DNA from: an uncultured Bacteroidota bacterium | GTDB taxonomy: Bacteria > Bacteroidota > Bacteroidia > JABEUT01 | DNA: 56,335 nt | Direction: 5' to 3' | Assembly: GCA_903863935.1 (NCBI GenBank) | Contig: CAIPDV010000093.1 | Span: 1-56,335 of the forward strand | Shown: piece by piece, positions 367-5,274 of the stretch | Layout: every line of letters begins with the position of its first letter | Position numbering within the stretch: the first letter of the stretch is position 1 | The notes under the pieces: generated by a model | Told to the model about the DNA's origin: nothing | The model's input: only the letters and a program-made list of their open reading frames with translations | Databases searched by the model: none | Translations under genes and position numbers: made by a program

Positions 367-708
367 ATGATTGATGACGATGCTGTATATTCTTATATAG
401 AAACTCAAAAAGAAGCTATCGATTTTTTTTCGATGCTATTTAATCGGTTTTATAGACTCTCATTTGTTAGTATAATAGTCCTATTTGTAATCCCTATTGA
501 AACATCTGATGCAATTGTTAAGATAGTTGGAGGGTTACTTTCATCCATTATGGTCTATTTATTTAAGCAAATAATTTCAAAAGCTGAGAGTATACCAAAA
601 GTGAGAAATGTTTACTTGTTATTTAATAGGGTTTGCTTGAAAAATGGTTATTATTCCTTCCAAGGGAAGAAAATTGGTGAAAAAATTTTGAAATTGATCG
701 CTTCTTAA
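367..708 (+). CDS. Small two-helix membrane protein, first gene of RES operon
   Basis: 113 residues, not recognised as a named family. Residues 1-30 are polar/amphipathic. Two hydrophobic segments follow (about 32-46, FVSIIVLFVIPI, and 50-68, IVKIVGGLLSSIMVYLF), then a basic tail. This hairpin layout, with a helix before and a charged helix after, is reminiscent of the small membrane domain associated with TRADD-N-type proteins in bacterial conflict systems, but that is only a layout resemblance. It starts the operon: nine bases separate it from the next gene, which overlaps the RES gene. Codon use is AT-rich relative to the core genes to the right. A membrane sensor or anchor role is inference. 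Confidence 0.7.
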   Translation: MIDDDAVYSYIETQKEAIDFFSMLFNRFYRLSFVSIIVLFVIPIETSDAIVKIVGGLLSSIMVYLFKQIISKAESIPKVRNVYLLFNRVCLKNGYYSFQGKKIGEKILKLIAS

Positions 709-716
709 ATGATACC

Positions 717-1556
717 ATGTCAGACCTAGAAGATTTCAAAGCCCCTCAAAATAATCCTGAAAGCGGGGAAGAGAGAACTAATCAGGAGAGTTTAACCAAA
801 GACCTTAATGAAAAAGTTAAGGAAGTAAACGAAATAACCTCCAAGTTCAAGAGGAACTTCTTTTGGAAAATAACTGTTTTCATCCTTTTATTACTTCTAT
901 ACCCGTTAGCTAAACCTTTTATTCAAAAGCAATGGGAAAAGGTGCCGTATATTAGTAAAGTAATAAAATTAAATACCGACACATTAGCATTGAGTCTGGA
1001 AATTAAGGAGCAAAAACAAATGAATAAGAACCTAAATAATGCGATTGATAGTTTAAAAGAAAATGTTTGGAATATAGGTACTTTTAGGGGGCGTGTCTCT
1101 TCAAATGAAGTTAAATTTGGAGGTATAGACGGTTATTGTAAATATTCGATTCAATATAAAAATGTTATAATGACTGCCAAAGTGGATATTTTTGGAGATA
1201 GTATATATAATTCATCTATAACTGCTTTAGCATATGAAAGGATATTTGATTGTCAATCAAATGATACAACTCCTATACCTTTAAATGAGCATCGATATAC
1301 TATGGACACCCTTTCTTCAATTTTTAAAAACGACTCGTTAATTATTTCATATAAGCCAGACATACTTAATAAACCACAATGTAGTTGCATATTTAGAGGC
1401 ATCATAAAAGGAAACTTAATTTCAGGGACTCTAAAAATACGGAGAATAGACTATCCTAAAACTCCAGCATTAACCTATGAGGTACCATGCGAAATTAATT
1501 TGATGAGACTAAGATATGGGTTTAGTTACAGTTCGTCAAATAATGACTTTCCATGA
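717..1556 (+). CDS. Single-pass membrane protein with coiled coil, second gene of RES operon
   Basis: 279 residues. The N-terminal 45 residues are acidic/polar and predicted cytosolic. One transmembrane helix spans about 50-66 (WKITVFILLLLLYPLAK). A likely coiled coil covers about 85-118 (LALSLEIKEQKQMNKNLNNAIDSL region). A soluble C-terminal domain of about 160 residues with alternating polar/hydrophobic strands and cysteines (CKYSIQYKN, CQCSC-like pairs) would lie outside the cytoplasmic membrane. I do not recognise the domain. The stop overlaps the start of the RES gene by four bases (ATGA type), so the two are probably translationally coupled. It could act as a periplasm-facing sensor or scaffold for the RES enzyme; this is inference. 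Confidence 0.75.
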   Translation: MSDLEDFKAPQNNPESGEERTNQESLTKDLNEKVKEVNEITSKFKRNFFWKITVFILLLLLYPLAKPFIQKQWEKVPYISKVIKLNTDTLALSLEIKEQKQMNKNLNNAIDSLKENVWNIGTFRGRVSSNEVKFGGIDGYCKYSIQYKNVIMTAKVDIFGDSIYNSSITALAYERIFDCQSNDTTPIPLNEHRYTMDTLSSIFKNDSLIISYKPDILNKPQCSCIFRGIIKGNLISGTLKIRRIDYPKTPALTYEVPCEINLMRLRYGFSYSSSNNDFP

Positions 1557-2542
1557 TAGATAAACTGATTGACAGGATTATTGTAGAAAAACCCCTTCCA
1601 TTATTTAATAGTCTAACTAGCATCAAAGAAAAGCTTGACTACTATCGTCAATTGAGTAGAGAGGGTCTATCTAATTTATCAGATGAGGATTTTATTAAGG
1701 TACATCAGGACATTACAAATTTTTTTAATTTCCAATTCCTTGCATACGTAGATGCCTATCCAACAAAACTATTTCGTATTTCTTTTAATAAATCAATAAA
1801 TAAGACGAGTGGAAGAGGTGGGGTGTTAAAAAGAGTTTCTGATTTGTTAGGTCCTCCTGCAGAATTTTCTACATTTAATAGATGTAATTTACCAGGTGAA
1901 AGAATTTTTTATTCCGCAGTTGACTTAAATACGGCAGTTATAGAAACAAAACCAACTTACCTAGACGTGATAACTATAAGTGAATGGAAAATAAAAGAAG
2001 GACAACAATTAATGATGTATGGTGTCTTTAATCATCCTGATATAATTGATAAAACAAAACAAGCTAAAGATGCTTATGATGGGTATCTTCTTGAAATGGA
2101 TAAGGCGCATCCAAATAATTATGAATTATTTGATACAATAATTCGATTTGTTACAGAAGAATTCATTAAGCCAGTACCAAAAGATAAGCCTAAAGAATAT
2201 TTATTTAGTGCAATTTTTTCATCTGGAATATTTCGAATTCCAACAAACGGCGTAAGAATGGAAGCAATATGTTATCCTAGTATTCAAAGAAAATATGGAA
2301 AATCTAATATTGCAATTATTAATTCATTAGTACTTCCAAAATTTCAATTAGAAGCTATTACAACCTATGATGTGTTAAATCAAGATTATAACATTGACCC
2401 CACGACGGATGAAGGAATTTTGAAAGTATTTCGAGCATTTGAAAGAATAACAGAATTCGATATTGAAAATGACAAGATAGTATACCCAACACCTGAATTT
2501 CAGATTCAACAGGCGATGGAAAGAATTATGAAGCGATCATAG
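1553..2542 (+). CDS. RES-domain protein (NAD+ phosphorylase / ADP-ribosyltransferase-like fold)
   Basis: 329 residues. Residues 66-260 carry the order of motifs of the RES domain: R75 in LFRISF, a GERIFYSAVDLNTAVIE block with E131, and a late MEAICYPSIQ...KSNIAI block with S243 followed by N252. These are the Arg, Glu and Ser that name the family. RES toxins of RES-Xre modules degrade NAD+ (established for the family). This one differs: it is longer than the usual 150-200 residue toxins, has an N-terminal helical region of about 65 residues, has no Xre antitoxin beside it, and instead overlaps a membrane protein gene. It has no signal peptide, so it is cytosolic. NAD+ depletion on a membrane signal is a reasonable hypothesis; a housekeeping RES enzyme is the alternative. 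Confidence 0.8.
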   Translation: MIDKLIDRIIVEKPLPLFNSLTSIKEKLDYYRQLSREGLSNLSDEDFIKVHQDITNFFNFQFLAYVDAYPTKLFRISFNKSINKTSGRGGVLKRVSDLLGPPAEFSTFNRCNLPGERIFYSAVDLNTAVIETKPTYLDVITISEWKIKEGQQLMMYGVFNHPDIIDKTKQAKDAYDGYLLEMDKAHPNNYELFDTIIRFVTEEFIKPVPKDKPKEYLFSAIFSSGIFRIPTNGVRMEAICYPSIQRKYGKSNIAIINSLVLPKFQLEAITTYDVLNQDYNIDPTTDEGILKVFRAFERITEFDIENDKIVYPTPEFQIQQAMERIMKRS

Positions 2543-4648: not shown

Positions 4649-4894
4649 ATGAACGAAGTAACTATTAAATATAAAGATTCAAAAACTTTAAAGATTTTAA
4701 AGGATTTGGCAAAATATTTTGATTTTGTTGTTTCAACGCCAAAAGAAGGGAAAAAGAAAACGGAAACAATAAATGGTGTTACCATTATTCCCGGAGATAG
4801 ATCTATTGACATGTCTGAACTTACAAAAATATTTTCGGGCAGAAATCTTGATGCGAAGGAATTACGAAAAAGAGGATGGGAGAGAAAAAGGTAA
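4649..4894 (+). CDS. Probable antitoxin of a VapBC-type pair
   Basis: 81 residues, Lys/Glu-rich, with a C-terminal basic helix (NLDAKELRKRGWERKR). No standard HTH or AbrB motif is obvious, so the antitoxin call rests on context: it overlaps the following PIN-domain toxin gene by 19 bases, the usual antitoxin-first order. The C-terminal helix would be the toxin-wrapping part. It starts 15 bases after the flavoprotein stop, so it is likely co-transcribed with the kor operon. Confidence 0.65.
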   Translation: MNEVTIKYKDSKTLKILKDLAKYFDFVVSTPKEGKKKTETINGVTIIPGDRSIDMSELTKIFSGRNLDAKELRKRGWERKR

Positions 4895-5274
4895 TTTGCG
4901 ATACGGATGGAATGATAGACTATTGGGATTATAGAAAGCCGCGTCATTCTGTTACAAAATCAATACTTGAGAATAAAATTGGAATTGACAATATTGTGCT
5001 TTCAGCTATTACGAAAATGGAATTGATGCAAGGAGCTCTTAATAAAAATGATATGGAAAAGATAAATAAAAAACTTTCCCGTCTCACTACTATTCTTATT
5101 GATAATGAAATTACGTTGAAAGCTTTCGATTTGCTTCAAAAGTATTACCTCAGTCATAGTTTGAGTCTCGCAGATTGTTTTATTGCCTCAACATCTGAAG
5201 TTACCGGATTAGAACTTTTCACGTACAATACTAAGGACTATAAATTTATTCCTCAACTTGTTTTGTTTAAATAA
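4876..5274 (+). CDS. vapC: PIN-domain ribonuclease toxin, VapC family
   Basis: 132 residues, the usual PIN toxin length. The acidic residues expected for the metal site are visible: D9 in ICDTDGMID, E49 in KMELMQG, D100 in SLADCFIAS and D121 in NTKDY. VapC toxins cleave tRNA or rRNA at single sites (family knowledge); the target here is unknown. All catalytic positions are kept, so it is probably active. The pair lies between two genes of the same enzyme operon, with 39 bases to korA, which suggests insertion into an existing operon. Confidence 0.85.
   Translation: MGEKKVICDTDGMIDYWDYRKPRHSVTKSILENKIGIDNIVLSAITKMELMQGALNKNDMEKINKKLSRLTTILIDNEITLKAFDLLQKYYLSHSLSLADCFIASTSEVTGLELFTYNTKDYKFIPQLVLFK

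Follow-up and report, generated by a model that had tools for sequence, protein, structure and literature searches.

RES proteins are classically the toxins of toxin-antitoxin modules. RES enzymes make up a large toxin family, the biological role of which has been called unresolved. According to a paper of 2024, immunity had by then been linked to no RES system, and known NAD-targeting defence used TIR and SIR2 folds only (PMC11535050); in the literature that we searched, with preprints and most subscription journals lying outside it, no report of RES in immunity was found. The protein studied here is like NatT, the RES NAD+ phosphorylase of the NatR-NatT module of P. aeruginosa (8qnl), in its RES fold, its R/R/Y/S/N set and its S-N spacing. 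However, NatT is inhibited by the adjoining Xre-type NatR, bound through a flap, whereas our RES gene is without an Xre gene, and its product has extra N-terminal helices (H21-37 and H44-57) and a longer C-terminal part. The RES-Xre, ParST and MbcTA modules likewise share with it the RES fold (6gw6, 9r35, 6d0h/6d0i) and the R-E-S residues, but the P. putida and ParT chains with solved structures have 144-160 residues and an Xre antitoxin alongside, unlike the 329 aa, the missing antitoxin and the variable neighbours of the protein described below. The HEPN/RES-NTD1 + RES proteins (PMC3710099) also have a RES domain that is extended at the N-terminus and occurs in defence-related contexts, although Pfam did not match their N-terminal domain in our protein. 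Finally, TIR and SIR2 NADase defence would resemble it in the NAD loss and abortive infection that we propose for RES, but their enzyme fold differs.

The window, by which we mean the whole stretch of DNA analysed (56,335 nucleotides from an uncultured Bacteroidota bacterium), carries at the left edge of its 56-kb contig three ORFs on the + strand, as the initial annotation had described them. The features of the locus are as follows.

1 to 141, + strand: 3' end of a repeat, probably the tail of a transposase gene, at the contig edge (140 bp matching 9 places in the genome; reading frame).
340 to 347, + strand: possible Bacteroidota -7 box TATATTTG, 5' of P1 (motif match only).
367 to 708, + strand: P1, an orphan of 113 aa with two hydrophobic windows (2-TM hairpin) (ORF, hydropathy, codon usage).
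717 to 1556, + strand: P2, an orphan of 279 aa with one TM helix near residues 47-70, a long helix/coiled coil and a C-terminal beta-rich domain (ORF, hydropathy, low-confidence model).
1553 to 2542, + strand: RES-domain protein of 329 aa (Pfam RES, AlphaFold model and PDB fold matches, conservation).

The gap of 8 bp between P1 and P2 and the overlap of 4 bases (ATGA) between P2 and RES give an operon-like spacing, and from the ATGA overlap P2 and RES are probably co-expressed here. The chance of such open frames by base composition is ~5e-5 for P1, ~2e-11 for P2 and ~2e-13 for RES, and codon usage supports P1 weakly (z 1.6), P2 moderately (2.3) and RES well (4.2); the RES start codon is supported since most homologues align from M1. 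The AT-richness noted earlier was borne out, the P1-P2-RES block having 29-32% G+C compared with 38.5% for the whole 56-kb window. The adjoining transposase tail is probable as well: positions 1-140 are the end of a repeat that occurs at nine places in the genome, several of them at contig ends, and it is because of this repeat that the assembly stops upstream of the operon. As for the TAnnTTTG promoter ascribed to the operon, TATATTTG is indeed present at 340-347, but motifs of this type occur in the region at the frequency expected by chance. No Rfam RNA family was detected in this locus or in the cassette-like loci presented below, and none of the three proteins matched PADLOC-DB 2.0.0 at E<=1. 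Downstream of RES lies a housekeeping oxidoreductase gene, then a small PIN-type toxin-antitoxin-like pair (4649-5274) in which an 81-aa ORF overlaps a gene whose product has a PIN domain (Pfam, E 2.1e-12), followed by a 2-oxoacid oxidoreductase gene on the other side.

The third gene had been assigned to the RES family, with R75, E131 and S243 kept. Pfam RES (PF08808) scored its product at E 5.5e-4 and 20.4 bits, under the gathering cut-off of 23.2. We looked at the fold using an AlphaFold model computed from a 16-sequence alignment (mean pLDDT 76.6, pTM 0.78). When this model was compared with the PDB by Foldseek, the best eight matches were all RES toxins, headed by NatT 8qnl (E 1.2e-4, probability 1.0) and followed by the P. 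putida RES protein and ParT, after which the score dropped; target-normalised TM-scores reached 0.57. Searching PDB sequences with the RES profile gave no matches, the RES toxins being found by the fold search alone, and BFVD fold matches were weak and uninformative. Letting the fold search decide over the sub-threshold Pfam score, the modelled protein is a divergent member of the RES superfamily, and the overlay on the family fold that the initial annotation had suggested making agrees with its assignment. Eight residues (R75, N79, R110, N112, Y120, E131, Y216 and S243) are invariant among 25 homologues, and N252 is kept in 24 of them. As to whether R75, E131 and S243 lie in one pocket, the analysis covered the overlay at fold level and conservation. 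By order and spacing, we infer that R75, R110, Y120, S243 and N252 are the counterparts of the active-site residues R23, R82, Y93, S184 and N193 of NatT (PMC11535050), with a serine-to-asparagine spacing of 9 in both proteins. The chemistry of RES proteins varies between NAD+ phosphorolysis, hydrolysis and protein ADP-ribosylation (PMC12457610), so that the use of NAD by our protein is likely, and its reaction may be any of these.

Hydropathy agreed with the proposed two helices of P1 and single helix of P2, while the outside placement proposed for the C-terminal domain of P2 was not established, since positive charges flank the TM helix on both sides. The single-sequence model of P2 (pLDDT 49.7) was too poor for a fold search, and neither protein had a usable match in Pfam, NCBIfam or PADLOC. 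No coding relative of P1 was present in 395 genomes of the phylum or in 23 RES-bearing genomes, and no relative of P2 in the same 395 genomes, 345 genomes of the class, 16 RES-bearing genomes, plasmids or viral contigs; altogether, about 700 genomes were searched without a relative of either. P1 and P2 are hence orphans at the sequence-search sensitivity used, which can overlook small membrane proteins that evolve rapidly. Weak matches to them in eight loci (L014-L017 and L019-L022) were set aside, as they look non-coding, frameshifted or coiled-coil where the larger loci were inspected. P1 was also considered as a 2-TM protein of the CyanoTRADDas_TM type (PF20712) or as a SLATT protein, and both assignments were rejected: it has no Pfam match up to E 10, and PF20712 is without a match in the genome.

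The distribution of the RES gene is of another kind. A scan of 84,980 genomes yielded 16 loci with a RES gene of 30-39% identity, nearly all in Bacteroidota, and a profile search of the class detected relatives in 18 of 325 genomes at E<=1e-8, with strong matches in about eight. In all, more than 20 Bacteroidota loci carry a relative, and P1 and P2 stand in none of them. The closest relative, L071, comes from the same genus (44% identity) and has a 5' end that looks damaged. No relative was found in phages or viral contigs. The RES genes of L030 and L031 have 93% DNA identity with 26% difference at four-fold sites, and their similarity spans exactly the start to the stop codon, with unrelated flanks. 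Similarly, those of L023 and L025 are ~93% identical with 17% four-fold change, the similarity being confined to the gene frame; that of L033 and L035 is likewise limited to the reading frame between unrelated flanks, and that of L032 and L067 ends within 5 bp of the gene edges. RES gene pairs have 0-5 bp of flank DNA in common, with the exception of L023 and L024, whose upstream flanks agree over 33 bp, as far as an attC-like core. Because flanks co-inherited at such divergence would stay recognisable, recombination at the edges of the RES gene is implied, and, as judged from these alignments, the unit of movement is the RES reading frame alone. We also noticed that the L033 gene, which has 78% DNA identity to the Pontibacter copy L035, lies on a contig that binning had assigned to Limnohabitans (Betaproteobacteria), reflecting either cross-phylum transfer or mis-binning. 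Two other copies are broken, one by an in-frame stop (L026:5001-5984) and one by a frameshift (L036:4459-5340), which suggests gene turnover.

In three loci, L023, L024 and L067, the setting of the RES gene looks like an integron cassette. Hairpins with arms of the GGCGTTTGGC/GCCAAGCGCC type and a GTTAGC or GTTACC core were seen in all three; in L023 and L024 long imperfect hairpins come first, then a GTTAGCTG core and then the gene, and similar hairpins occur 3' of the gene in L024 and L067. Of four sites folded, three were more stable than shuffled DNA, with z values of -3.8, -3.2 and -2.2 for L023, L024 and L067, and the fourth, in L032, had -0.8. The sites were recognised by inspection and folding, as automatic scanning for attC gave too much noise in all loci but L023. 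We call them attC-like only, because the integron integrase model TIGR02249 stayed under its cut-off in each of the 8 genomes in which it was sought. No such site lies at the window locus.

Collecting homologous loci, as had been suggested, placed RES relatives in neighbourhoods of defence type, although P1, P2 and RES were never found together. Directly upstream of RES or close to it lie a full-length Avs4 (1625 bits) in L030 and an Avs4-like protein in L029, Gabija GajA and GajB in L027, a PDC-S54 protein in L031 with AbiH downstream, an LmuB-like ATPase in L023, an AbiJ_NTD5 gene in L032, a Schlafen AlbA_2 gene in L067, and an Abi_C (PF14355) gene in L070 with AbiEi/AbiEii near by. For a comparison, control regions with an equal number of ORFs were taken from the same genomes. 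PADLOC models matched at E<=1e-15 numbered 69 over 88 ORFs near RES and 37 over 88 control ORFs, counts that include redundant models, and the control matches were mostly to helicase, restriction and IetA models. The coding density of ORFs longer than 150 aa was ~62% near RES and 87% in the controls. The association of the RES family with defence genes is clear but moderate, the enrichment being only moderate because the controls also hold defence-type matches and the models counted are redundant.

The initial annotation had interpreted the locus as a three-gene system, in which a P1/P2 membrane sensor releases or activates RES, which then drains NAD+. The operon-like spacing and the ATGA overlap of P2 and RES speak for such coupling, and RES begins within ~15 bp of an upstream gene, or overlaps it, in five loci (the window, L031, L032, L070 and L072). 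Some of the abutting genes encode membrane proteins, an ion channel in L032 and an 8xMP protein in L072, that of L031 being PDC-S54; in L070 (6802-8883, minus strand) RES, a 95-aa ORF and the Abi_C gene form an overlapping run that is another candidate coupled RES operon. Against this, P1 and P2 turned up in no RES-bearing genome searched, nor in the other samples, the same-genus relative L071 does without them, and near-identical RES genes stand beside unrelated genes. Within the searches made, the co-occurrence of the three genes was never found, which is the outcome that the initial annotation had named as a refutation. Homologues of RES move on their own, as one gene, and we consider the sensor pair feeding RES unlikely. 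It is also rather doubtful, although a shade less so, that RES is a plug-in effector repeatedly coupled to differing upstream sensors (P1-P2, the L070 Abi_C pair, the L032 ion channel, the L072 8xMP protein and the L031 PDC-S54); if it were, it would constitute a modular NAD-targeting immunity effector outside the TIR and SIR2 folds.

The missing antitoxin bears on another explanation. In agreement with the initial annotation, no Xre, MbcA or ParS antitoxin gene adjoins RES among the ORFs at 1-2845. Since RES proteins are toxins by tradition, the gene could belong to a selfish or stabilising toxin-antitoxin-type element with no role in phage defence, the antitoxin being encoded far away or by a neighbour that escaped recognition, and L025 does have an Xre-like ORF ~650 bp upstream of its RES gene. 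However, no such ORF was found near RES in L023, the gene of which is ~93% identical to that of L025, and across the relatives' loci no conserved antitoxin or other gene partner stands beside RES, which makes this explanation improbable. Less probable still is that RES is an ADP-ribosyl/NAD enzyme with a housekeeping or metabolic task and incidental mobility, or that the gene is a passenger undergoing decay. RES chemistry varies, with at least GndR being non-canonical (PMC12457610), and the broken copies of L026 and L036 would suit a passenger, but the active site is strictly conserved, the distribution in the class is patchy, and low coding density and defence genes surround RES. Between a three-gene system and a mobile RES enzyme that stands alone, the data favour the latter. 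With somewhat better than even confidence, we take the RES gene alone to be the functional core, as a mobile, antitoxin-less subfamily of defence islands encoding a self-controlled abortive-infection enzyme, and P1 and P2, as part of that same reading, to be neighbours at this locus rather than a conserved sensor. What weighs against the stand-alone enzyme is that an upstream gene abutting RES in five loci could mean a functional partner and that a toxin without antitoxin must still be inhibited somehow.

The antitoxin-less state, the extra N-terminal helices and the defence-type neighbours together suggest an infection-triggered enzyme that controls itself. In this reading, the RES frame spreads horizontally through Bacteroidota and settles in defence islands as well as cassette arrays, and the extra N-terminal helices would autoinhibit the enzyme. 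On a phage-linked trigger, RES would consume NAD+ or ADP-ribosylate a target and the cell would stop; RES probably arrests the infected cell by one of these two activities. In the genome studied here, translational coupling ties RES to the two orphan membrane genes. A RES subfamily that lacks an antitoxin, moves as one gene and occurs next to Avs4, Gabija and Abi genes provides a small and concrete gene set for testing RES in phage defence.

A DUF6414 gene lies ~106 bp upstream of the Balneola RES relative in L037 (3776-5810) and in L002. In L003, L006 and L011, more distant RES proteins that are rich in Cys in their N-terminal region are preceded by a similar-looking gene of ~313 aa, and are perhaps a separate two-gene RES system; by eye, these weaker relatives resemble the HEPN/RES-NTD1 + RES architectures.
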